Assembly (NCBI GenBank): GCA_030628225.1
Contig: DAOVRJ010000032.1
Span: 1 to 14,865 of the forward strand
Direction: 5' to 3'
DNA length: 14,865 nucleotides
Origin: Candidatus Zixiibacteriota bacterium
Lineage (GTDB): Bacteria; SM23-81
Shown one piece after another: positions 1-14,647 of this stretch; position 1 is the stretch's first letter, and each line of letters starts with the position of its first letter. The notes under the pieces were generated by a model. The model was not told the DNA's origin. It did no database searches and was given only the letters and a program-made list of their open reading frames with translations. The position numbers were made by a program, and so were the translations under genes.

Positions 1-2
1 CC

Positions 3-494
3 CCCGTTAAAGCAAATCCTTTATTGAAAAAAAAGGGTTTGGTTCCGCTGAAACAGGCCATAAAGCTGGAACAGCTTTTGAGGCGTCCTGGGATCAGCGT
101 ATCTGATATAAAGCAGATGAGTGATAAAAAGATTGATTTGACGACAGAGCTTGCTGAACGAGTTGAGGCGGAGGTTAAGTACGGGGGTTATATCCGCAGG
201 CAACGTGCTCAAATAAGGAAGTTCAAACGTCTGGAGATGCAGCTCATCTACGAAGGATTCGACTATTTGGGTTTAAAAGGTTTTTCGACTGAGGCGCGAG
301 AGAAATTGCAGAAGATTCGGCCGAGATCGATTGGTCAGGCCATGAGAATTTCCGGGGTAACGCCTGCAGATATTTCTGTTTTGCTGGTTCACCTTCATAG
401 GGGTTGCGTTGATGGTCAGGAGGCTGGAGGAAGAAAAACGCTGGGAGCAAGAGTTGGTGCGGCGCAGCCGGCAAATGCGGATCCAGCTTTCTGA
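3..494 (+). CDS. mnmG: MnmG (GidA), C-terminal part; tRNA wobble-uridine modification enzyme
   Basis: This is the C-terminal 160 or so residues of MnmG; the FAD-binding part lies left of the window. With MnmE, MnmG installs (carboxymethyl)aminomethyl groups at C5 of wobble uridine 34 in certain tRNAs. The visible part is the helical C-terminal domain, which in this family contacts MnmE and tRNA. It contains the typical runs [44 protein letters not shown] and LLVHL. Family members usually stop a few residues after that last run. Here the frame continues for about 30 residues of Gly/Ala-rich sequence (from about nt 402) that overlaps rsmG by about 80 nt. The tail may be a real extension or the result of a small indel near nt 395-400, since a TAG lies at 398-400 in another frame. 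The family assignment is secure; the C-terminus is not. Confidence 0.93.
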
Positions 495-1101: not shown

Positions 1102-1124
1102 AAGAGGTTTCGGTGAGGCAAATA

Positions 1125-1886
1125 ATGGGCCGAATTATCGCCGTGGCAAATCAAAAAGGTGGAGTGGGGAAAACGACCACGGCAGTGAATCTGGCCGCCT
1201 GTTTGGCCGTGGTGGAAAAGCGGACGCTCCTGGTGGACATCGATCCACAGGCGAACAGCACCAGCGGGCTGGGTTTCACATCGCAGGAGATGGAGAGCAG
1301 CATCTACGAAATTTTAATTCAGGATAAGCCTATTAAGGAGGTCGTTTGCCCCACCAAGGTTCCATATCTTGATTTGATTCCATCCCATGTACGACTGGTG
1401 GGAGCCGAAGTAGAATTGGTGAACGTCATCGCCAGAGAGAGAAAATTAGAGACCGCTCTGGAGCAAGTACGCCAGGAATATCAATATATCATAATAGATT
1501 GTCCCCCTTCGCTGGGACTGCTTACTGTGAACACGCTAACGGCGGCAGACACGGTATTGATACCTATCCAGTGCGAATACTATGCCCTTGAGGGATTGGG
1601 TCAGTTGTTGAACACAATTCGCCTGGTTCAAAAGCATCTCAATCCCAACCTGAGAATTGAGGGGGTTTTGCTTACCATGTACGACAATCGCCTTAACCTA
1701 TCTAGGCAGGTAGCCGAAGAGACCAGGGAGTACTTTGATAAAAAGGTTTTTCGAACGATGATCAATCGAAATGTCCGGCTCGGTGAGGCGCCGAGCTTTG
1801 GAAAACCGATTATCCTCTACGACATCCTGTCTACGGGTGCCGAAAACTATATGGCCTTGGCCAGGGAAGTGATGTTAAATGGCTAG
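1125..1886 (+). CDS. parA: ParA/Soj chromosome-partitioning ATPase
   Basis: ParA is a nucleoid-binding ATPase that, with ParB bound at parS, drives segregation of the origin region. The 253-residue protein opens with [18 protein letters not shown]. This is the deviant Walker A motif (residues 11-18), with signature lysine K11 and P-loop lysine K16. Walker A' is [12 protein letters not shown] near residue 40 and Walker B is [10 protein letters not shown]. Later segments typical of the chromosomal Soj group include [12 protein letters not shown] and [14 protein letters not shown]. There is no N-terminal HTH domain, as expected for chromosomal (type Ib-like) ParA. ATG 1125 fits the family start and has GTGAGG six nt upstream. 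GTG 1113, behind GAAGAGG, would add four residues and cannot be excluded. The 3' end overlaps parB by 8 nt, implying translational coupling. Confidence 0.96.
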
Positions 1887-2736
1887 AAAAGCGTTGGGCA
1901 GGGGCATCGGTGCCATCATTTCCGAAGTGCCCCTGGTGTTAGACCGGAAGAGAAACCTTCTTATGGACATCGAGCTCGACAAGATCTCAGCAAATCCGAG
2001 CCAGCCCCGAGGCAACTTTGATCCTCAAGCGCTGGAAGAGCTGTCACGATCTATCAACGAACGCGGGGTCCTGCAGCCGGTGGTCGTAAGGCAGACAGAA
2101 GAAGGTTTTCAGTTAATCATCGGCGAAAGGAGAACGAGAGCAGCCAAGTTGGCGGGCAAGAAGAGCATCCCGGCCATAGTCCTGCATGTCTCCCAGGAGC
2201 GAGAGATGCTTGAATTGGCTCTGGTGGAGAACCTGCAGCGGGAAGATTTAAATCCCATGGACGAAGCCAGGGCCTACAAAAAACTAATAGCGGATTGTGG
2301 TCTGACCCAGAAAGAAGTTTCACAGAAAGTGGGTAAAGACCGGGCCTCCGTGGCTAACGCCATACGATTGTTGAAGTTACCAGAAGAAGTACAGGATTAT
2401 GTAGTGCAAGGAAGCATCTCCGCTGGCCATGCGCGGGCCCTGTTGGCCCTGGATGATCCACGGGAGCAGATAGAGCTGGCTAAGAGGGTTGCCAAAGGTG
2501 ATCTGTCCGTGAGGACCGTGGAGCGCATAGTTCAGAAACGGAAGGGAGGAAGTAGACGAAAAAGACAGGCCCGACAAGCAAAACCCCCAGAAATTAGAGA
2601 GTTAGAGGAGAAGCTGCAGCGTGTTTTTGGCACAGCCGTGAATATTGTATGGCGGGGGAAAAAGGGAACGTTGGAAATAGAATTTTACTCAAATGAGGAC
2701 CTGGAGAGAATATTGGCTGTTATCGAGTTGACATAG
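1879..2736 (+). CDS. parB: ParB/Spo0J centromere-binding CTPase
   Basis: ParB binds parS, loads as a CTP-dependent sliding clamp and activates ParA. The 285-residue protein has the expected order. An N-terminal ParA-contact motif, LGRGIGAII, lies near residues 6-14. NPSQPR lies near 39-44. The CTP-binding motif GERRTRA lies at 82-88 (many homologs have Trp where this one has Thr). [14 protein letters not shown], the second CTP motif, lies near 118-130. The [23 protein letters not shown], is at about 142-161. A basic linker rich in Lys/Arg (about 216-232) precedes the C-terminal dimerisation domain. The ATG lies inside the last codons of parA. No consensus parS (TGTTTCACGTGAAACA) was found in this window, so its target is probably elsewhere. 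Confidence 0.96.
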
Positions 2737-3144: not shown

Positions 3145-3981
3145 ATGGGTGACCAGAGGGGCGCGCTTACTTTTATTATCATTCCAGAAAACGCATCGAA
3201 AACATATACTTTTCGTTTGAAACGCGGCTTGATCTATATGTTTGCAGCAGCCTGTTTAGCTTTGTTTTGCTTTTTTGCCTATACGATGATCGTACAACAG
3301 GGTTTACGTTCGAATGCCCGGAAGGCTGAGAGGCTGGAGGTGGAAAATAGCATGTTGCGGGAGAAGATGCAGAAGATAACTGTCTTGGAGCGCGAGCTTG
3401 CTCGTCTGCAACACATCCGCCACCATCTCTATGATATGGCCGGCCTGTCCTTTGAAAATGAGCAGTTCCGGGGCGGAGGATCCCCGGAAAAGAGATTAGC
3501 GTTGGCCGCCACTGAAGAGAAATACCAACCAGCAAATGAGGAATTGTTCGCTGGGCAGGAAGAGCCGGCCTTTACTGATACGGTACAGATGCGCACCACA
3601 AATACGCCAGTTCTTTGGCCGGTAAGGGGTTGGGTGACGGCAGAGTTTAACGAGGTTTTGCCTGGAAGGGAAAAAAGGCACACGGGCATAGACATAGCCG
3701 CGTCCCAGGGGAGTGCAATTCTCTGCGCAGCCTCGGGGAAGGTTGCTTTCGCTGGGTGGGATAAGGACTTGGGGTTAGTTGTCATCGTCGATCACAAAAA
3801 TGGCTTGAGCACATTGTACGGGCACTGTTCCGAAGTGGTGGTTGAGGTGGGCAGAGTGGTTAAGCAGGGGCAGATTGTTGCCCAGCTGGGTAACACGGGG
3901 CAAAGCTCTGCGCCACACCTCCATTTTGAAATAAGGAAAGACGGAATAGCCATAGATCCGCGGAGATATCTGGGGCCTTGA
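3145..3981 (+). CDS. Membrane-anchored M23 family metallopeptidase (LytM domain)
   Basis: This is a predicted cell-wall endopeptidase, or LytM-type regulator, of 278 residues. A short cytoplasmic start is followed by one membrane segment at about 30-50 and a Leu/Glu/Arg-rich coiled coil at about 57-92. A variable linker leads to an M23 domain at about 155-278. The zinc and catalytic positions appear intact: H179 and D183 in RHTGID, H227 in LYGHCS, and H258/H260 in APHLHFEI. This suggests active hydrolysis of peptidoglycan cross-links rather than a degenerate activator. GGAGGA lies 4 nt before ATG 3145. The gene is followed 25 nt later by bactofilin, a pairing seen in many bacteria where the scaffold localises the peptidase to shape the envelope. 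The exact cleavage specificity cannot be read from sequence. Confidence 0.93.
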   Translation: MGDQRGALTFIIIPENASKTYTFRLKRGLIYMFAAACLALFCFFAYTMIVQQGLRSNARKAERLEVENSMLREKMQKITVLERELARLQHIRHHLYDMAGLSFENEQFRGGGSPEKRLALAATEEKYQPANEELFAGQEEPAFTDTVQMRTTNTPVLWPVRGWVTAEFNEVLPGREKRHTGIDIAASQGSAILCAASGKVAFAGWDKDLGLVVIVDHKNGLSTLYGHCSEVVVEVGRVVKQGQIVAQLGNTGQSSAPHLHFEIRKDGIAIDPRRYLGP

Positions 3982-4006
3982 GGGAAAAATGGGTAAGGAG
4001 GATAAA

Positions 4007-4489
4007 ATGTTTGGCAAGGAGAATGAAATGCGGCCAGAAGAGGGTAAGTTGAGCACGATCATTGCGAACGGCACAAAGATCGTCGGCAATATAGACATGG
4101 AGGGAAGCATCAGGATCGATGGTTTCATTCAGGGAAAGGTAAGCTCCTCTGATACGCTGACGGTAGGCAAGACAGGAGTGGTGGATGGGGAGGTAATAGT
4201 TAAGGTTGCAATTGTTGGCGGGAAGATCAAGGGAAATCTGGTTGCCTCTCAAAAAGTGGAGTTAGAGAGTAAAGCCACAATACTGGGAGACGTGAAAACA
4301 CGCATTTTTGTCATCAAAGAGGGCGGTATTTTCCATGGGAAATGCTCTATGCGCGAGCAGGGGGTGTTTAAAGAGGAGGAGAAGGGGAAAGGATTTCCTG
4401 CAAAGATGGAGCAAGAACCGAAATCGACACTGGTTAAACCGGAGACTTCCAAACCCATTGGGTCCGTATCTGGCCTGGGGAAATCTTAG
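4007..4489 (+). CDS. Bactofilin (polymer-forming cytoskeletal protein)
   Basis: Bactofilins form nucleotide-free beta-helical filaments on the inner membrane face and act as scaffolds for wall enzymes, and in some species for ParABS positioning. The core here, from about residue 14 (STIIANGTKIVGNI) to about 120, has the repeated short beta strands with Gly turns typical of the domain, such as GSIRIDGFIQGKV, GKTGVVDGEV and GGKIKGNL. A charged, low-complexity tail of about 40 residues follows. I prefer ATG 4007 because TAAGGAGG ends 5 nt before it and the resulting MFGK start is common in bactofilins. In-frame ATG 3989, also behind an SD-like GAGGGA, would add six residues. The gene likely shares a transcript with the M23 gene. 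The tail could be a partner-binding segment, which is inference. Confidence 0.92.
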   Translation: MFGKENEMRPEEGKLSTIIANGTKIVGNIDMEGSIRIDGFIQGKVSSSDTLTVGKTGVVDGEVIVKVAIVGGKIKGNLVASQKVELESKATILGDVKTRIFVIKEGGIFHGKCSMREQGVFKEEEKGKGFPAKMEQEPKSTLVKPETSKPIGSVSGLGKS

Positions 4490-4509: not shown

Positions 4510-4615
4510 TGTGGATATGTGGATAACCAGGCAACAAGTGTGGATAACTCAACAAACGGTTGTCTTGTGGCGAGTTACAAAACAAACCTCAGAAACTAAT
4601 AGATAGTTATCCACA
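4510..4615. other. DnaA-box cluster; candidate oriC or DnaA-controlled region
   Basis: The 212-bp gap before the ATPase operon carries TGTGGATAT (4510-4518, 8/9), TGTGGATAA (4518-4526, perfect) and TGTGGATAA (4539-4547, perfect). It also carries TTATCCACA (4607-4615, perfect, opposite orientation). The two left boxes share one base and the arrays face each other. The interval 4574-4606 is richer in A/T than the flanks and ends in TAATAGATAG next to the last box. Three exact copies of a 9-mer within 100 bp are far above chance, and nearby mnmG/rsmG/parAB fits an origin. Against simple oriC status, the genes to the left run toward the cluster and no dnaA gene is visible. A DnaA-regulated promoter region is the main alternative. 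Confidence 0.72.
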
Positions 4616-4701
4616 AACAAGCGGAGTGGTTTGGCGTTGCCCTTACGGCGAGAAAAATAGGGGATGTGCTGGAGAGAACAGGCAGAAAAAGGAGTGCGGA
4701 T

Positions 4702-5025
4702 GTGGCATTGGAGGCTTTGAAAGAGATCCGGAAAGCGGAGAAAAAGGCGGAAGAGCTGGTCAAGGGGGAGCGGACAGCGGGTGAAAAAGCTCTGCTGACT
4801 GCCGAGAAGGCGCGAAACAAAGAAATTGAGGAAACGCAGATTCAAGCCAGAAAGACCGTGGAGAAAAAGATCTCCCAGGCCTCCAGAGATGCCCAGAAGA
4901 AGGTGGCCGAGCTTCAGGAAAAGGGCAAAAAAGAGATGATAGACATGAGGGACCAGGCGGAGAAAAGGATGAAAAAAGCGGTGGAGATCGTGCTAGAGAA
5001 ATTGTATTTAGAGAAGCGGGGTTGA
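4702..5025 (+). CDS. atpH: V/A-type ATPase peripheral-stalk subunit H (G-like)
   Basis: This 107-residue protein is almost entirely charged coiled coil with heptad-like Ala/Leu spacing (KEIRKAEKKAEELVKGER, then Lys/Glu-rich runs). It matches the small stalk subunit that pairs with subunit E to hold the A3B3 head to subunit I. It is the first gene of the operon, as in archaeal ahaH-led operons. I chose GTG 4702 because AGGAG (4690-4694) ends 7 nt before it and the start MALEALKEI fits the family. GTG 4666 would add 12 residues but has a poorly spaced TAGGGG. The stop overlaps the TTG start of the next gene. Sequence alone gives weak homology here; position and composition carry the call. Confidence 0.82.
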   Translation: MALEALKEIRKAEKKAEELVKGERTAGEKALLTAEKARNKEIEETQIQARKTVEKKISQASRDAQKKVAELQEKGKKEMIDMRDQAEKRMKKAVEIVLEKLYLEKRG

Positions 5026-7031
5026 AATTGGCCGTTGCCAGAATGCAGAAAGTGCAAATTTTTTTCCATAATTCTTTAAAAGAAGCAATTTTGGAGGAAA
5101 TCCAGCGTGCAGGTATTCTGCACGTTAGAAGTATGGAAGAAAGTTACCCAGAGCTGCCGGAGGGGGTTTCTTTCCAAAAGGACAGTGGTGTCGGGGAGCA
5201 GGAGACCCTCCTGTCGGGTTTGGAGTTCGCCCTGGAGTACTTGAAGCCCTTTGAGGAGAAGAGGGGACTGCTTAATAAATTGGGCACGGCCAGGGTAGAG
5301 CTGGACGAACAGGAATATAGAAAGCTGTTGGAGGAGTTCACCGGTCAGGAAGTGGTACGATCGTGCCGCAAGTTGGAGCGAGAAAGGGTCAGGTCGAGCG
5401 CGGAGCTGAATGAAAAGGATGCCCTCAAGCAGCAAATGGGTGCCTGGGTAAATCTGGACATACCATTTGAGGATTTGAGTCCGACGGCCACCAGCGAGGT
5501 GATCTTAGGATCGGTGCCAGGAGGGCAGTTCGCTGTTCTATCTCAGAGACTGGCGGAGGAGGCTGAGGTTTATCATCTGGAGCTGGTGGGCAAATCCGCC
5601 TTGGAGGAGCACTGTCTGCTGCTATACCATAGACGGGAAAGCAATGCTGTGGCAAGCGTTCTGGAAGCGCTGGAGTTCACCGAGAAGCGGTTCCCCAACC
5701 TCCAGGGCACACCAGAACAGGTGATCGATAGGCTGGACAGGGAGATGGCCAGCCTGCGCAAGTCGCTGCACAGACTGGACGAAGAGAGCCGGAAGCTGGT
5801 GCCACACCGGCCGAAACTGATGGTGTTGGCAGAGCATACAGCGGATGAACTGGAGAAAAGGCGGGCGGAACTGAAGATGGCCAATACAGAGCGGGTTTTT
5901 CTCCTGGAGGGGTGGGTAAAGAAAAAGAATTTCCGGAGGCTGGAGGATCATTTAAAGAAAAAGTTCGCTGCCATTTCCATTGTTCCGGCAGATACCCTAC
6001 CCGGGGAAATGCCGCCAGTGGAACTGGAAAACAAGCCCCTGCCCAGCTCTTTTGAGATGGTTATAGATCTATACGGAAGACCTAAATACACCGAGATTGA
6101 TCCAACGCCGATCCTCACCCCGTTCTTCGCCATCTTTTTCGGACTCTGCCTCACGGATGCCGGGTATGGTCTGACCCTTTTCGCCATCTCTCTCTTCTTC
6201 TTAAAGAAGTTTCGGCTGGGACGCGGGACCCGTAAGCTGTTCCAGCTACTCTTGTGGAGTGGTCTGGCCACTATTGTTACCGGTGCTCTTACCGGTGGGT
6301 ATTTCGGCATCGATTGGAGCAGGTTCAGCCCAGAATCTCCAGTAGTTAAAGCAGTCTATGCGGTTAAGGTCTTCGATCCCATTGCCGACGCATTAACCTT
6401 TTTCCAGGTTGCCATCGTGTGTGGTGTCGTGCACATATTTGCCGGCCTGAGCCTAAAGATGTTCGCCGGCATCAGAGAGGGGGATGCGCTGCGATCGATT
6501 CTCATGCACGGCCCGTGGCTCTTAGCAGATGTGGGGCTGGGCATCTTTATGATGAATTTTCTAGCGCCAGTTGGAGAGATTCTGAGCGTCTGGGCGAAGT
6601 ACTTGCTGGTAGCTGGTATGCTGGGAATTTTTCTGTTCAGCGGCATCGGCAGCAAGAATCCCATTGCCTGGGTGGGCAAAGGTCTGGGAGGTCTGTACGG
6701 CGTCATAGGCATCTTTAGCGATATACTCTCCTACTCGCGTTTAGTAGCACTGGGTCTGGCCACAGCGGTCATCGCCGGAGTAATCGACATCCTGGGGATA
6801 ATGCTGATGAAGATCCCCTTTGTCGGGATCATAATGGCCATAATTTTATTCATCGTGGCTCATCTAGGCTATCTGCTCATCTGCTGCTTGGGGGCTTTTG
6901 TTCACACCGCCAGGCTGAATTTCGTGGAGTTCTTCTCGAAATTCTATGAGGGAGGCGGAGAACAATTTGATCCTCTTAGCAAAAGAGCTAAGTTTGTTTT
7001 ATGGAGTGAGAGAAAGGAAGAAGTTGCCTGA
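5022..7031 (+). CDS. atpI: V/A-type ATPase membrane subunit I (a-subunit)
   Basis: Subunit I provides the half-channels for ion passage past the K ring and anchors the two peripheral stalks. The 669-residue length is normal. A soluble, partly coiled-coil N-terminal half (to about residue 360) is followed by multiple membrane segments starting at TPFFAIFFGLCLTDAGYG. Conserved C-terminal motifs are SYSRLVALGLA with Arg573 and HTARLNFVEFFSKFYEGGG with Arg631. These are the expected stator arginines of the ion path. The gene begins at TTG 5022 inside the stop of atpH (TTGA). TTG 5028 or ATG 5043 are less likely because they trim the conserved first strand. It is separated from atpK by 37 nt. Confidence 0.95.
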   Translation: MKLAVARMQKVQIFFHNSLKEAILEEIQRAGILHVRSMEESYPELPEGVSFQKDSGVGEQETLLSGLEFALEYLKPFEEKRGLLNKLGTARVELDEQEYRKLLEEFTGQEVVRSCRKLERERVRSSAELNEKDALKQQMGAWVNLDIPFEDLSPTATSEVILGSVPGGQFAVLSQRLAEEAEVYHLELVGKSALEEHCLLLYHRRESNAVASVLEALEFTEKRFPNLQGTPEQVIDRLDREMASLRKSLHRLDEESRKLVPHRPKLMVLAEHTADELEKRRAELKMANTERVFLLEGWVKKKNFRRLEDHLKKKFAAISIVPADTLPGEMPPVELENKPLPSSFEMVIDLYGRPKYTEIDPTPILTPFFAIFFGLCLTDAGYGLTLFAISLFFLKKFRLGRGTRKLFQLLLWSGLATIVTGALTGGYFGIDWSRFSPESPVVKAVYAVKVFDPIADALTFFQVAIVCGVVHIFAGLSLKMFAGIREGDALRSILMHGPWLLADVGLGIFMMNFLAPVGEILSVWAKYLLVAGMLGIFLFSGIGSKNPIAWVGKGLGGLYGVIGIFSDILSYSRLVALGLATAVIAGVIDILGIMLMKIPFVGIIMAIILFIVAHLGYLLICCLGAFVHTARLNFVEFFSKFYEGGGEQFDPLSKRAKFVLWSERKEEVA

Positions 7032-7068
7032 ACGACAGGGGAGAAAACATTCCGGAAAAGGGGGGTCA

Positions 7069-7659
7069 ATGTACATGGCGAGGTTGAAGAGAATCTCAGG
7101 CTGTTCTGTCGCTCTGTTTGCGGTGCTGGTCATGGCCACGCCAGCCTTTGCCCAGGCTGGGTCCGAGAGCTCAGCAAGCTGGTTTCGCTTTGGACCGGTA
7201 ACTCTTAGCATCGCCGGTGCTGCTATAGCGGTGATTCTCTCGGGCATAGGGTCAGCGGTGGGCATAGGTTATGCGGGTCGCGCCAGCCTGGGGGCCATGA
7301 GTGAGGGAACAAAGGATTTTGCAAAATATCTGATGCTGACGGCTCTGCCGGGCACGCAGGGTATTTACGGATTTGTGGCCGCCTTTTTGGTCCTGCTCTG
7401 GAGCGGTATTATGGCTGGCGATACAGCGGCGCTGACAGTGGATAAGGGCTGGCAGTTTTTCTGCGCCAGTCTGCCGGTGGCCTTTGCTGGTCTGTTCTCC
7501 GCAATTCAGCAGGGCAAAGTATGCGCCTCCGGAGTTAATATGACCACCAAACAGCCAACAGAGGTGGGAAAAGCGCTGGTGTTGGGCGTTTTCGTCGAGT
7601 TCTACGCCGTTTTGGGGCTGCTTATAACTATTTTGCTGCTCATCAGTATCAGGGGGTAA
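7069..7659 (+). CDS. atpK: V/A-type ATPase subunit K (c-ring proteolipid, Na+-type ligand set)
   Basis: This is the rotor-ring proteolipid, 196 residues, with two fused hairpins (four membrane helices after the leader). It has an N-terminal signal-peptide-like segment: basic MARLKR, a hydrophobic run, then AFA before Gln29. Hairpin 1 contains SGIGSAVGIGYAG and LPGTQGIYGF; hairpin 2 contains SLPVAFAGLFSAIQQGKV and GVFVEFYAVLG. The positions that bind Na+ in E. hirae NtpK (Leu61, Thr64, Gln65, Gln110, Glu139) correspond to Leu93, Thr96, Gln97, Gln148 and Glu177. The Glu-contacting tyrosine is Tyr100. Sodium coupling is therefore plausible but inferred. ATG 7069 follows AAGGGGGG; ATG 7075 is equally possible. 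A longer frame from 6946 inside atpI is unlikely. A hairpin follows the stop. Confidence 0.94.
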   Translation: MYMARLKRISGCSVALFAVLVMATPAFAQAGSESSASWFRFGPVTLSIAGAAIAVILSGIGSAVGIGYAGRASLGAMSEGTKDFAKYLMLTALPGTQGIYGFVAAFLVLLWSGIMAGDTAALTVDKGWQFFCASLPVAFAGLFSAIQQGKVCASGVNMTTKQPTEVGKALVLGVFVEFYAVLGLLITILLLISIRG

Positions 7660-7660
7660 G

Positions 7661-7682
7661 CAGACAGGGAAATGCCTGTTTG
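7661..7682 (+). other. Intercistronic RNA hairpin after atpK
   Basis: CAGACAGG (7661-7668) pairs with CCTGTTTG (7675-7682) over 8 bp with one G-U pair and a 6-nt loop. It starts two bases after the atpK stop codon and has no U-tract. It could act as a 3' stability or processing element helping the ring subunit reach its high copy number, rather than as a terminator. Confidence 0.5.
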
Positions 7683-7707
7683 AGCCGATGCGAGACGGGA
7701 GCTGTTT

Positions 7708-8304
7708 ATGTCCGTGGACAAAATCAAAGCGAAGATACTGTCCGATGCCCAGGCTGAAGTTCAGAAGATCGAGGCTGAGATTGCCCAGAAAGTGAAAAAG
7801 ATTCAGGCTGAGCAAGGGGAATCCGTGGCGGCCATCAACAAGGAAGCGGAAGAAGAAGGCCGGTGGCGGGCAAAGGATCGGCTGAAAAAGGATCTGGCCA
7901 GCGCTGAGCTGGAATTGCGCAAGGACTTGCTTGAGCAAAAACAGAAACTTATCCAGAAGGTTTTCGACAAGACCTTGAAACACCTGGCCAGGCTGAAAGG
8001 TGAGCAGTACGAGAAGCTGATCGCCGATCTTCTGCTGAAAACGGTGGAGGTGGGCGATGAGCAGGTGATTTTCTTCAGCGGCGATGATCAAAAGCTAAGA
8101 GATGAGTTTCTGGAAGAGGTAAATAGCCGGCTGGTCAAAGAGGGTAAGAAGGGGGCTCTGCGGCTCATCAGAGAGGATCGGGATATGCTGGGGGGGTTTG
8201 TCTTGCGCCGCGGGAAAAGAGAGGTAAACTGTTCTATAAAAGCTCTTATCAGTACTGTCAGGGAGGATTTAGAGCCTGTCGTGGCAAAGATCCTGTTTTC
8301 CTGA
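7708..8304 (+). CDS. atpE: V/A-type ATPase peripheral-stalk subunit E
   Basis: Subunit E forms the peripheral stalk with subunit H and caps the A3B3 head. The 198-residue protein has a long charged coiled coil (residues about 1-100; for example DKIKAKILSDAQAEVQKIEA). A globular C-terminal domain (about 105-198) ends with the typical GGFVLRRGKREVNCSIKALI pattern. Length and domain order match the family. GGAG (7698-7701) lies 6 nt before the ATG. The gap of 48 nt after atpK is the first clear break in the operon and holds a hairpin; there is no sign of a promoter. Regulation is probably by the shared transcript. Confidence 0.93.
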   Translation: MSVDKIKAKILSDAQAEVQKIEAEIAQKVKKIQAEQGESVAAINKEAEEEGRWRAKDRLKKDLASAELELRKDLLEQKQKLIQKVFDKTLKHLARLKGEQYEKLIADLLLKTVEVGDEQVIFFSGDDQKLRDEFLEEVNSRLVKEGKKGALRLIREDRDMLGGFVLRRGKREVNCSIKALISTVREDLEPVVAKILFS

Positions 8305-8305
8305 C

Positions 8306-8320
8306 GTGTTCATGGAACAC
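8306..8320. repeat. Short inverted repeat between atpE and atpC
   Basis: GTGTTC-ATG-GAACAC is a perfect 6-bp inverted repeat with a 3-nt centre, starting 1 nt after the atpE stop in a 44-nt gap. The right half GGAACA resembles half of a parS variant, but the spacing is wrong for parS. It could be an operator, a weak hairpin, or chance. Confidence 0.35.
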
Positions 8321-8348
8321 AGATTTTAATTTGACGTAGGCTTTAATC

Positions 8349-9362
8349 ATGGACCTTTCCGAGATAACCTTCAAAGACGACACCCGCTATGCTTATGCAG
8401 TGGGACGGGTCAGAGCCCTGGAGACAAAGCTCTTCACCAGGGCGGATTTCTCCCGATTGTTGGAAGCAGCGGATTTCCCTCAGGCTCTCAGACTCCTGGC
8501 CGAGTTGGGCTATCCGGTGTCGGAGGAGATCAGGGAATACGAGCCGGTCTTGGAGGCAGAGCAGAGGGCCGCTTTGATCCTTCTGGATAATCTTTCTGAA
8601 GATGATGGTCTGGTGGAGATTTTTCGGAGAAGGTACGACTATCACAACCTGAAGGTGCTTCTTAAGGGGAAACACTCGGGGCAGGAGCTGAAGCGGGCAA
8701 CTATGGATTTAGGACTTGTCAGCGTGGATGATCTGGCAGAGGCCGTGATGGGAGAAGAGGTGGGCGAGCTTCCGGAAACGCTGGCCCGGGCCATGGCCGG
8801 AGCGGAGGCAGCCTTTGCCGAGAGCAATGCTCCCCAGGAGCTGGATGTGGCCGTCGACAAAGAGCAATATGATTTTATGTCCCAAGTGCTCAGACGACTG
8901 GAAAACTCCTTTTTACAGACATGGCTGATCTGGGAGGTTGATCTGCAGAACATCAAGACTTTTCTGCGACTGCGCTGGCTTGATGAAAACGTCAAGCTCT
9001 TGGAGCGGGACATGCTCCCGGGGGGCAGCTTGGGGACTGGTTTTTTCCGAGAGATCAGGGAAGAGCCCCTAGATGTTCTGGCTCAGACATTTACAATGAC
9101 ACCGTATGGAAAGGCTGTCGCGGAGGGAATCTCTCAGTTAAAGGCGAAAAAGAGCTTCGCGTCCCTGGAGAGGATCTGCGATGATCTTCTGATCCAGTTT
9201 TTAAAAAGAAGCCGGGAAGCAAGCTTCGGCGCGGAGCCAGTTATCGCTTACCTTCTGCTGAAGGAATTCGAGATAAGGGCGGTGAGGGCCGTCCTGGTGG
9301 GCAAACTAAACGATTTGCCCAAGGAGAAGATCAGGGAGCGTTTGCCCAGTGAATATGTTTAA
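8349..9362 (+). CDS. atpC: V/A-type ATPase subunit C (socket between rotor stalk and K ring)
   Basis: Subunit C (AC39/d family) is the funnel-shaped, all-helical protein that couples the central D-F stalk to the K ring. The protein is 337 residues, close to the usual 320-350. Typical features are YAYAVGRVRALETKLF at the start, the repeated RRYDYHNLKVLLKGK and WEVDLQNIKTFLRLR motifs (the fold is a three-fold helical repeat), and a C-terminal AYLLLKEFEIRAVRAVL helix. The ATG follows TAGGC by about 10 nt, so initiation may be moderate. The last 14 nt overlap the preferred start of atpF, which implies coupled translation. Confidence 0.94.
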   Translation: MDLSEITFKDDTRYAYAVGRVRALETKLFTRADFSRLLEAADFPQALRLLAELGYPVSEEIREYEPVLEAEQRAALILLDNLSEDDGLVEIFRRRYDYHNLKVLLKGKHSGQELKRATMDLGLVSVDDLAEAVMGEEVGELPETLARAMAGAEAAFAESNAPQELDVAVDKEQYDFMSQVLRRLENSFLQTWLIWEVDLQNIKTFLRLRWLDENVKLLERDMLPGGSLGTGFFREIREEPLDVLAQTFTMTPYGKAVAEGISQLKAKKSFASLERICDDLLIQFLKRSREASFGAEPVIAYLLLKEFEIRAVRAVLVGKLNDLPKEKIRERLPSEYV

Positions 9363-9681
9363 CATCGCCGTTATTGGAGATAGAGACTCGATATTGTGTT
9401 TCCGGGCCGTGGGGGTGAGTGTTTTTCCGACCACGGACGATGAACAGGCCAAAAAGATCTTTCAGAAGTTGACCCGAGACGATTATGCTGTCATATTCGT
9501 CACAGAACAGTTAGCTGCCGGGTTAGATGAGCAGATACAGAAGGTGGCTTTTCAGCCGCTCCCCAGCGTGGTGCTCATCCCCAACAGCAAGGGTTCTTTG
9601 GGGTTTGGCATGGGACGGATCAGGGAGATAGTCAAGAAAGCGGTGGGCGCGGACATTCTGGCAGACGAAGAGGAGGGATAG
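9349..9681 (+). CDS. atpF: V/A-type ATPase central-stalk subunit F
   Basis: Subunit F binds subunit D in the rotor shaft and modulates catalysis. The 110-residue protein has a compact alpha/beta fold starting with FNIAVIGDRDSILCFRAVG and continuing VIFVTEQLA and VVLIPNSKGS. The C-terminal helix, RIREIVKKAVGADIL, is the part that contacts the shaft or, in some members, the head. GTG 9349 has AGGGAG 10 nt upstream; ATG 9355 gives MFNIAVIGD, a more typical family start. Either overlaps the atpC stop at 9360-9362. The stop codon is followed immediately by atpA. Confidence 0.93.
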   Translation: MNMFNIAVIGDRDSILCFRAVGVSVFPTTDDEQAKKIFQKLTRDDYAVIFVTEQLAAGLDEQIQKVAFQPLPSVVLIPNSKGSLGFGMGRIREIVKKAVGADILADEEEG

Positions 9682-11454
9682 ATGAAGCAAGGGATCATAG
9701 TGAAGGTCTCCGGCCCCTTGGTTGTGGCAAAAGGAATAGGAAATGCCAGAATGTACGATGTGGTCAGGGTGAGCGAGAAAAAGCTCATCGGTGAGATCAT
9801 CGAGCTGCACGGTGACCAGGCCTCCATTCAGGTATACGAGGACACGGCCGGGTTGGGCCCCGGAGAGCCCGTGTACTCTACCGGAATGCCGCTAAGCGTG
9901 GAGCTTGGACCGGGAATGGTGGGAGCCATCTACGACGGCATTCAGCGGCCGCTGGATGTGATCCGCGAGCAGGTGGGCGATTATATCACCAGGGGCATAG
10001 ACATTCCCGCATTGGACAGAAAGAAAAAGTGGAAGTTCGAGCCGCAGGTCAAGAATGGTGACAAGGTGGTCGGCGGCGACATTCTGGGGGTCGTGCAGGA
10101 AACTGCGGTGGTGGTCCATAAAGTTCTAGTCCCCCCCGGTCTTTCCGGAACAGTTGCGGCGGTGGAGAAGGGCAAGTTCACCGTGGAGCAAACCGTTGTC
10201 AGGCTGAAGACAGGGGATGGGACAGTAGATCTTACCATGATGCAGCGCTGGCCGGTTCGCCGGCCCAGGCCGTACCAGAAAAAACTTGTGCCCACAGCGC
10301 CTCTGATCACAGGCCAACGGGTAATCGACACCTTCTTTCCCGTGGGCAAAGGAGGAACTGCCTGCGTTCCCGGACCGTTTGGCAGCGGGAAAACGGTTAT
10401 TCAGCACCAGCTGGCCAAGTGGGCCAATACAGAGATAGTAGTCTACATCGGGTGCGGAGAACGAGGCAACGAGATGACCGATGTTCTCACAGAGTTCCCG
10501 GAGCTGAAGGATCCCCGCACCGGGGAATCGTTGATGAAAAGGACGGTGCTCATCGCCAACACATCCAACATGCCTGTCGCCGCAAGGGAGGCTTCGGTGT
10601 ACACCGGTATTACAATTGCCGAGTACTTCCGGGACATGGGATACTCCGTAGCGGTAATGGCCGATTCCACCTCCCGATGGGCCGAGGCCATGCGTGAGAT
10701 TTCCGGCCGGCTGGAGGAGATGCCCGGCGAGGAGGGCTACCCGGCATATCTGGGCACCAGGGTGGCCGAATTCTATGAGCGGGCCGGCATGGTGGTCTGC
10801 GAGTGCGCCGGGAACCGGAAGGGATCGTTAACCGTTATCGGTGCAGTTTCTCCTCCCGGCGGAGATCTCTCCGATCCTGTGGTCCAGGCCACATTGCGGG
10901 TGGTCAAGGTTTTCTGGAGCCTGGAGGATATTTTAGCCTTCAAACGGCACTTTCCGGCAATCAGCTGGCTGAACAGCTATTCCCTCTACTACGACAACAT
11001 CAGCGAGCATCTCAACAGAGATGTGAGCGAGGACTTCGAGACCATGCGCGATGAGGCTATGAAGCTGCTCCAGCAGGAAGCGGAATTAGAGGAGATGGTC
11101 AAGCTGGTGGGTGTGGAATCCCTGGCGCAGTCCGACCGTCTGATACTGAAGACGGCCAAGAGCATAAGAGAGGATTTTCTGCACCAGAATGCCTTTCACG
11201 AGGTGGACACCTTCACATCGATGAAAAAGCAGTTTCTCCTGCTGAAGCTCATCTCAGACATGCATCGGCAATCTGAAGAGGCTCTGCAAAAGGGCGTGAC
11301 AGTGGAGAAGCTAACCGCTATCCCGGCCAATGAGGAGGTCGCCCGATCCAAGTTTATCTCCGAGCAAAAGATGGAATCCATCAAAGCTGTTGGGGAACAT
11401 ATGGAAACTCAGATTCAGAAGCTCATCCAGGAGGTAACGACAGAGAATGCTTAA
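9682..11454 (+). CDS. atpA: V/A-type ATPase catalytic subunit A
   Basis: Subunit A hydrolyses or makes ATP at the interface with subunit B. The 590 residues show the N-terminal beta barrel, the A-type-specific bulge domain (about 110-200) and the nucleotide domain. Walker A is GPFGSGKT (231-238, with Lys237). The catalytic glutamate is E260 in [27 protein letters not shown] and [14 protein letters not shown] follow, then the helical C-terminal domain. No intein interrupts the P-loop, as occurs in some homologs. Translation is favoured by GAGGAGGGA directly before the ATG, which abuts the atpF stop. The end overlaps atpB by 8 nt. The protein has the V/A-type bulge and is not an F-type beta subunit. 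Confidence 0.98.
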
Positions 11455-12925
11455 GGAGTATTTGACCATACGAGAGATAACCGGTCCCCTGGTTCTGGTG
11501 GAGGAGGTGAAGGGTGTCAAGTACGAAGAGCTGGTGGAGTTGGAGCTGCCCGACGGGGAGACGAGAAGGGGCAAGGTTCTGGAAGTCGATGGCGATAAGG
11601 CCCTGGTACAGCTTTTCGAGGGTTCTACCGGCATCGATGTATACAAAAGTCGAGTCCGTTTTTTAGGCAAGGGTATCGAACTGGGTCTTTCTATGGACAT
11701 CCTGGGGCGGGTCTTCGACGGCCTGGGCCGGCCCATCGACGGCGGTCCCAAGATCCTGCCGGACAAGCGTGTGGACATCAACGGCAGCCCGATCAATCCA
11801 TACGCCCGACTGTACCCATCGGAGTTCATCCAGACGGGCATCTCGGCCATAGACGGGCTGAACACCCTGGTGCGGGGACAGAAACTGCCCATCTTCTCCG
11901 GGTCCGGTCTACCCCACAATCATTTGGCGGCCCAGATTGCCCGTCAGGCCAGGGTGTTGGGCAAGGAAGAGGTCTTTGCCGTGGTCTTCGCCGCCATGGG
12001 GATAACATTTGAGGAGGCCAATTACTTCATCACAGATTTTCAGGAAAGCGGTGCCATTGAGCGGGCCGTTCTTTTCATGAACCTGGCTGATGATCCGGCC
12101 ATCGAGCGCATCGCCACCCCGCGCATGGCCCTGACCGCTGCGGAATACCTGGCCTACGAACAGGATATGCACGTGCTGGTCATTCTGACCGACATGACCA
12201 ACTACTGCGAGGCCCTGCGGGAGATTTCCGCTGCCCGCAAGGAGATCCCCGGCAGGCGGGGCTACCCCGGATATCTGTACACGGACCTTGCCTCGGTGTA
12301 CGAGCGGGCGGGCCGCATCAAGGGCAAGAAGGGATCCATCACCCAGATCCCCATTCTGACCATGCCGGAGGACGACAAGACGCATCCTATACCCGACCTG
12401 ACCGGATATATCACCGAGGGACAGGTGATCTTGTCGCGCCAGCTGTACAAAAAAGGGGTCATGCCGCCCATAGATGTTTTGCCATCTCTGTCTCGTTTGA
12501 AGGACAAGGGCATTGGACCGGACAAGACCCGGGAGGACCACGCAGACGTGTTCAACCAGTTGTTCGCCAGCTATGCCGGAGGCAAGGATGCTCAGGAGCT
12601 GGCCGTTATATTGGGCGAGGCCGCTCTTACGGACATGGACAGGATGTACTACAAGTTCGCCGAAACCTTTGAACAGCGCTATGTGAGCCAGGAAGAGGAT
12701 GAGAATCGGAGTATCGCCGAGACCCTGGACCTGGGCTGGGAGCTGCTGTCGGTTTTTCCCACCGGCGAGCTGAAGAGGATTCGACAGGAATGGCTGGACA
12801 AGTATCTGTCCAGGTTCAAGGAGGAAGAGGAACCCGAGGGTAAACCAAAGGAATCTGAGGGGAAGGCCGAGGCCCGCGGGGAGAATATGGAGCCGGTCGC
12901 CGAGGAGACTGAGGAAAAATCATGA
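11447..12925 (+). CDS. atpB: V/A-type ATPase regulatory subunit B, with charged C-terminal tail
   Basis: Subunit B alternates with A in the head and binds nucleotide without catalysing hydrolysis. The P-loop position has [14 protein letters not shown], the degenerate Walker A of B subunits. Other typical runs are [33 protein letters not shown]-like text (here [20 protein letters not shown]), [36 protein letters not shown] and [17 protein letters not shown]. The core ends near residue 457. The last 35 residues (458-492) form a Glu/Lys/Pro-rich tail that typical B subunits of about 460 residues lack. AGGAGGT lies 11 nt before the ATG. The stop overlaps the atpD start (ATGA). Confidence 0.97.
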
Positions 12926-13545
12926 GGCTTGCCGTCAACGCCACGCGAATGCAGCTGCTCCGGCTGCGAAAGAGACTGGCCATCGTCCGCCGGGGCCACA
13001 AGCTGCTGAAGGACAAGCAAGATGCGATGATGCGCCAGTTCATGGAGCTGGTCAAATCGGTGAAGGGGATGCGCGCAAGGGTGGAGGATCAGCTGCAGGC
13101 GGCCTTTCAGAGCTTTCTCCTGGCCCGTTCCACCATGCCCGACCAGCTGGTGGAGGAAGCCATCTGCATGCCAGGTATGCGCCTGAGCCTGAAAGTGGGC
13201 CAGCGTCAGATCATGAACGTGAGAGTTCCTGTGCTGAAGCCCATCGTGGAGGGCTCAATTCGATGCTATGGTTTTGTGGGCACCTCAGGGGATCTGGACA
13301 TCTCCCTGAGATTTCTGGGGGGCGTTTTGGAGCAAAGTCTGAAACTGGCCGAGGCGGAGAAGACCATGCAGCTTTTGGCCGATGATATCGAGAAAACCCG
13401 CCGGCGGGTGAACGCTCTGGAGTATACCCTGATCCCCGATCTGATAGAGACTATCCGTTATATCACCATGAAGCTCTCGGAGATGGAACGTTCCAACCTT
13501 TCCCGACTGATGAGAATAAAGAACATCATCCGCGCGGAAGAATAA
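12922..13545 (+). CDS. atpD: V/A-type ATPase central-shaft subunit D
   Basis: Subunit D is the long coiled-coil shaft turning inside A3B3. The 207-residue protein has the paired terminal helices expected of this family. The N-terminal one (about 1-60; [29 protein letters not shown]) and the C-terminal one (about 135-205; [20 protein letters not shown]) flank a short mixed region. The motif [11 protein letters not shown] is highly typical. It begins within the atpB stop (ATGA), ensuring coupled translation. It is the last gene of the operon, with an intrinsic terminator 24 nt later. Confidence 0.97.
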
Positions 13546-14356: not shown

Positions 14357-14486
14357 AGGGGGAAGTGTCCCCCTAGCTGCAGCCAGCGTGCCCTGGGGCC
14401 ACTGTAGGATACCTCCGCCGGGAACTCTCAGGAATAGTACGCGACTCAGTTGAAAGGGATACCTGTATACCCTTTGATGTGGCCCC
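14357..14486 (+). ncRNA. Possible structured RNA (low confidence)
   Basis: Three stems can be drawn. AGGGGG/CCCCCT (14357-14362 with 14369-14374) is a hairpin with a 6-nt loop. GGGGCCAC (14395-14402) pairs with GTGGCCCC (14479-14486), an 8-bp GC-rich closing stem around 76 nt. AAAGGGATAC with GTATACCCTTT (14453-14475) forms an inner stem with one bulge. Nested stems of this kind suggest an RNA or a mobile repeat. Strand is uncertain because the pairing works on both strands. No known family was recognised. Confidence 0.25.
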
Positions 14487-14487
14487 C

Positions 14488-14585
14488 AATGCAAAATGAA
14501 AAATGCAGAGTGAAAATTTCAAATTGATCTTGCACCGACTACTTGTTCATCTTGGATCTTGAGGGTTTGACTCTCATTTTGCATT
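14488..14585. repeat. A/T-rich inverted repeat
   Basis: AATGCAAAATGA (14488-14499) is exactly complementary in reverse to TCATTTTGCATT (14574-14585), a 12-bp perfect inverted repeat with 74 bp between. The right arm continues into degenerate copies of T-rich words such as CATTTTTCA and CATTTTACA to about 14625. The left arm continues into the matching A-rich words. Confidence 0.6.
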
Positions 14586-14647
14586 TTTCACTTTTCATTT
14601 TACATTTTTCAATGCTCATTTTTCAGAATGTCGGGCACCGGCTGGCT

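Follow-up and report, generated by a model that had tools for sequence, protein, structure and literature searches.

A conserved DnaA-box element downstream of bactofilin genes in Zixibacteria and other lineages, probably apart from oriC and possibly datA-like

Our analysis revealed that the intergenic region between a bactofilin gene and a V/A-type ATPase operon, in a 14,865-bp contig of a Candidatus Zixiibacteriota genome (contig C83 of an assembly of 306 contigs; hereafter the window), carries a conserved element of about 100 bp in which DnaA boxes of fixed order flank an interior dyad. The element itself, that is its boxes, dyad, spacing, copy number and position, is well supported. As to its biochemical function, we infer from the comparisons described below that it may be a datA-like DnaA/IHF-type control element distinct from oriC, a reading to which we give about an even chance.

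As the first-pass annotation had claimed, three exact 9-mers and one 8/9 match lie in this gap (Table 1), which is indeed non-coding as judged by the open reading frames and Pfam domains that bound it. Its description of the two left boxes as abutting needs a small correction, for they are adjacent but share one base. The extra box at 4510 is common only to G001, a genome of the sister family, where it has the same spacing, and it lies outside the wider consensus, while boxes A and B start 20-21 bp apart in the aligned set. The window holds 10 DnaA-box matches with at most one mismatch, where 200 shuffles gave 2.56 +/- 1.51 and never more than 7. Moreover, exact TTATCCACA occurs 31 times in the entire 2.34-Mb genome and a reversed control pattern 7 times, and three exact boxes within 98 bp are thus not a matter of chance.

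Table 1. The DnaA-box element and its gene neighbourhood, in positions of the window
Feature	Position	Strand	Description
parA	1113-1886	+	part of the ancestral upstream operon
parB	1879-2736	+	part of the ancestral upstream operon
M23 peptidase	3145-3981	+	part of the ancestral upstream operon
Bactofilin gene	3989-4489	+	Pfam PF04519; lies consistently upstream of the element (96/100)
Extra DnaA box	4510-4518	-	8/9 match (ATATCCACA); 1-base overlap with box A
DnaA box A	4518-4526	-	exact TTATCCACA; outer box of the element on its left side; TGTKGAWAA across 100 copies
DnaA box B	4539-4547	-	exact TTATCCACA; two helical turns from box A
25-bp dyad	4553-4577		TAA-N4-TTG-N5-CAA-N4-TTA (here CAA-ACGG-TTG ... 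TTA); 5 bp from box B
DnaA box C	4607-4615	+	exact TTATCCACA; inverted relative to boxes A and B; spacing from box B 68 bp, in relatives 68-70 bp
V/A-type ATPase operon	4666-13545	+	E/H-like stalk ORF, I, K, E, C, F, A, B, D

In the ATPase operon, subunits I, K and E were identified by Pfam and the remaining ones named from sequence. Past the last gene, the stretch 14480-14640 contains an inverted repeat of low complexity (TGCAAAATGAAAAATGCAGAGTGAAAA / TTTTGCATTTTTCACTTTTCATTTT), which may be a dispersed palindromic repeat.

The architecture recurs widely. In G001, whose bactofilin is 68% identical, all four boxes are present with the identical spacings of 8, 21 and 68, so that the loss of boxes in close relatives, which the annotation had named together with a skew minimum elsewhere as speaking against an origin, is not seen in this sister-family genome; and loci in other phyla keep the spacings at 20-21 and 68-70. 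A genome-wide pattern search, given no position, matched 22 of 132 Zixibacteria genomes with one match each, the control giving 0 matches. With a sequence-only profile (R1, built from the 28 copies of alignment A1; cut-off E <= 1e-3) the matches rose to 101 of the 132 genomes, nearly always one per genome. Among 386 relatives, the profile matched beside bactofilin in families f1 (the genome's own), f8, f105, f216, f254, f160 and f5, and also in f137 without bactofilin; the element is present in about eight families besides Zixibacteria. Some of the other weak matches in these relatives fall on dense oriC arrays of the ordinary kind at dnaA-dnaN, and against E. coli datA, DARS and oriC the profile gave nothing beyond noise.

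The bactofilin gene precedes the element in 96 of the 100 aligned copies, at a median of 19 bp from its stop codon; among the other four, two follow M23, one follows ParB and one follows none of these. The link to bactofilin is an independent result, since neither the search pattern nor the profile holds position information and bactofilin coding sequence is all but absent from them. There are also natural absences. The profile search detected no copy in 31 of the 132 Zixibacteria, and in two genomes of the window's own phylum (G002 and G003, loci L034/L035) the adjacency of bactofilin and V-ATPase is kept with the DnaA boxes absent between them. A complete Zixibacteria chromosome (bin119; G386, L054) has an intact parA-parB-M23-bactofilin series with no DnaA boxes after bactofilin. 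As a separate observation, G468 has two element matches, C1:714315 and 1620753, on a single contig of 2.6 Mb; a dnaA domain was not found in the search of this genome.

The cluster had been proposed as a candidate oriC away from any dnaA, with a skew minimum predicted at about 4.5 kb. The absence of dnaA holds inside the window but not in the genome: window positions 1-119 are identical to the final 119 bases of C143, another contig of its assembly, and the join, which falls inside mnmG, places the dnaA start about 10.4 kb to the left of the cluster. The gene order on C143 is gyrB-recF-dnaN-dnaA leftward, then rnpA-yidC-mnmE-mnmG rightward. Joining the two contigs gives 29,472 bp, on which cumulative GC skew is lowest at 6753 and purine skew lowest at 6738, both at the junction between dnaN (5793-6920) and dnaA (7356-8696); the cluster, at 19117-19222, is 12.4 kb from the GC-skew minimum and has positive GC skew to its left and right. 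Moreover, the dnaA-dnaN gap contains TTATCCACAAATCCACAGCCCCTACTATAACTACTATTTT, namely tandem boxes, a GC-rich spacer and DnaA-trios, as does that of G001. This module (C143:7186-; TTATCCACA-AATCCACA-GCCC-CTACTATAACTACTA) has the BUS layout of DnaA-boxes and DnaA-trios described in PMC8287927, and the dnaA-dnaN intergenic region at 6921-7355 of C143 (L032) is likely the oriC of this genome.

The cluster itself has no DnaA-trio module, BUS being seen in its own genome solely at dnaA-dnaN, and no AT-rich DUE, its AT maximum per 40 bp being 70% against 85% at dnaA-dnaN. Reading very leniently, one can see a middle-A pattern to the left of 4510, which is not conserved in G001. Also in G001, G106, G458 and G497 the skew minimum is away from the element, at or near dnaA, and G418 is an ambiguous genome with its minimum between the dnaA site and the element. 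That the cluster is a replication origin, either the main oriC or a secondary or latent one, would agree with its mnmG-rsmG-parAB neighbourhood, its multiple high-affinity boxes and the resemblance of its divergent TGTGGATAA...TTATCCACA boxes to R1...R4 of E. coli; however, with the skew minima and the trio module located at dnaA-dnaN, the lower AT maximum and box flanks that have no conserved bases, we consider it very improbable. What survives of the broader suggestion, a secondary origin element or a DnaA-controlled region, is a conserved DnaA-box element apart from oriC. More generally, skew and DnaA-trio tests are needed before DnaA boxes clustered near mnmG-parAB are labelled oriC.

The distance between element and dnaA varies considerably. 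The element is 12 kb from the origin here and about 11-60 kb from dnaA in several genomes with both on one contig, but about 0.16-1.6 Mb away in six long-contig Zixibacteria; since contig size favours short distances, origin proximity is not a defining feature. In three single-contig Zixibacteria genomes, dnaA and the bactofilin/element locus are 0.7 Mb (G415, G416) and about 1.6 Mb (G413) apart, and heavy rearrangement or unusual replication is suggested for them. In G415 and G416 the sampled GC skew is too flat to place the origin, and a BUS-like sequence is found at dnaA-dnaN.

Between boxes B and C, a set of columns that lay outside the search pattern is conserved: counting the start of box B as 0, these are Y14 A15 A16, T21 T22 R23, A30 A31 and T36 T37 A38, of which A15 is invariant both in the first set (27/27) and in the larger alignment (100/100). 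They are mutually complementary around column 26 and thus form the 25-bp dyad, which is a predicted bend site for an IHF/HU-family protein. With its TAA-N4-TTG the dyad has the core of the IHF consensus, TAAnnnnTTGATW (PMC8682772). The fit to this consensus peaks at the dyad offset (5.93/9, background 3.00 +/- 0.72); when the opposite strand is read, the peak is at the mirrored offset (5.40/9, background 2.96 +/- 0.68). Many copies, that of the window included, match the full 13-bp consensus poorly, so that the dyad could serve some other dimeric protein. Within it, TT and AA steps are 9 bp apart, which is the kink spacing in IHF/HU-DNA complexes, and the genome encodes two HU/IHF-family proteins, at C178:7288 and C168:5513.

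Since boxes B and C repeat each other in inverted orientation, and interior stems can be drawn in some copies, we also weighed whether the seeming boxes might be stems of a conserved RNA structure in the 3' region of bactofilin. The changes in the boxes are not compensatory, for example CGTGGATAA opposite TTATCCACA in G001, interior folding z-scores are near zero against shuffled sequence (mean -0.54), and an Rfam search gave no match for the element; an RNA reading is therefore barely conceivable. A conserved hairpin, tried as a candidate, was rejected as the stems seen in single copies (L137, L136, L144) fail as a consensus structure.

It is also conceivable that the boxes are a passive sink which titrates DnaA and has no specific nucleoprotein architecture. 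The three consensus boxes would serve this, and for E. coli there is a proposal that DnaA is titrated by the density of boxes near ori (PMC12371093). Like such titration sites and ori-proximal clusters, the element has consensus boxes near the origin in its own genome; unlike them, it has a fixed architecture, an interior dyad and one copy per genome. Considering that a sink needs neither near-fixed spacing nor a conserved dyad, we regard plain titration as quite unlikely to be the whole explanation.

For a DnaA-control element, the geometry suggests how it might work. A dimer of the HU/IHF family would bind the dyad and sharply bend the DNA. The bend centre is about 43 bp from box A and about 46-48 bp from box C, and with arms so similar a U-turn would set these two boxes side by side. 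DnaA on boxes A, B and C could then assemble into a compact oligomer, which would titrate DnaA or alter its nucleotide state and thereby limit re-initiation. The most likely effect would be to promote ATP hydrolysis, as E. coli datA does, with ADP release or plain titration as alternatives. No Hda-type second DnaA-domain protein was found in the genome.

The closest comparison is with E. coli datA, which in its minimal form consists of one IHF site and several DnaA boxes (PMC10950094). Both are non-coding, single-copy, outside oriC and composed of DnaA boxes and one IHF site (in the element a putative one, the dyad), with DnaA presumed to bind across the IHF bend, and in its own genome the element is also near the origin. 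Of these ingredients the boxes are present, and the IHF-consensus dyad is enriched across the set, with the full consensus weak in the window's copy. In the E. coli sequence that was scanned, datA shows a + box at 945, its IHF site at 1010, and two further boxes at 1107(+) and 1119(-), whereas the element has tandem - boxes, a dyad 5 bp from box B and a + box 68 bp on. Membership of datA was rejected on this difference in box order and spacing and on the lack of a profile R1 match in the datA region. Origin proximity is important for datA; that of the element is not universal, given the six long-contig Zixibacteria mentioned above. The DnaA-reactivating sequences DARS1 and DARS2 of E. coli are likewise non-coding DnaA-box elements with a conserved layout, and DARS2 also uses IHF. 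However, the DARS core has box I(+), II(-) and III(-) spaced 14 and 12 bp, and the element, whose geometry differs from this three-box core, was not assigned to DARS either. With bacterial origins that carry BUS it shares the DnaA boxes and differs in having neither DnaA-trios nor an AT-rich DUE, its genome's own BUS being 12 kb away.

What follows the element bears on a local role in transcription, by which DnaA together with a bending protein would repress or activate a downstream promoter, or act as a roadblock that ends transcription of par-M23-bactofilin. Such a role is consistent with the short distance from the bactofilin stop codon and with a same-strand gene downstream in 87 of 100 copies (as assigned), and DnaA roadblocks, discussed for asnC and datA (PMC10950094), provide a precedent. 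On the other hand, the downstream gene is inconstant: in the 100 copies it is MoxR in 63, a small membrane protein in 15, V-ATPase in 6 and HflX in 3, with opposite-strand genes in others. Moreover, the element is retained where parAB is absent nearby (G106, G415) or bactofilin is absent (L038, L151, L152), and scanning the site gave no sigma-70 promoter or terminator consensus. Altogether we hold transcription control to be somewhat unlikely as the main function, though the tie to bactofilin could reflect a local transcriptional role. The first-pass annotation had further suggested that DnaA might couple replication to ATPase expression. The V/A-type ATPase operon lies downstream of the element in its own and several lineages, not in Zixibacteria, and with downstream genes that vary among V-ATPase, MoxR, HflX and convergent ones, ATPase control is not the general role of the element; at the window's own locus DnaA-controlled ATPase expression is possible, as V-ATPase follows the element in several families.

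To our knowledge, detailed accounts of datA and DARS exist only for E. coli and its relatives. Within those portions of the literature that our search reached, no paper linked bactofilin with DnaA boxes in such a way. What appears to be new here, as judged from sequence comparison, is a putative DnaA-control element of fixed architecture with a box order and spacing unlike those of datA, DARS and oriC: the same ingredients in a different fixed arrangement, conserved in an uncultured phylum and several others. With a chance that we put slightly below even, it may represent an undescribed, phylum-spanning class of DnaA regulatory elements, composed of tandem boxes, a symmetric IHF/HU-type site and a divergent box and tied to ParABS-bactofilin, which would control DnaA outside Proteobacteria and perhaps couple initiation to origin segregation and the cytoskeleton. 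The natural absences, in 31 of the 132 Zixibacteria and in G002 and G003, offer ready comparisons. If this is true, DnaA control would be tied to the par-bactofilin locus, and the element would give a sequence-recognisable handle on DnaA control in lineages that have no experimental system.
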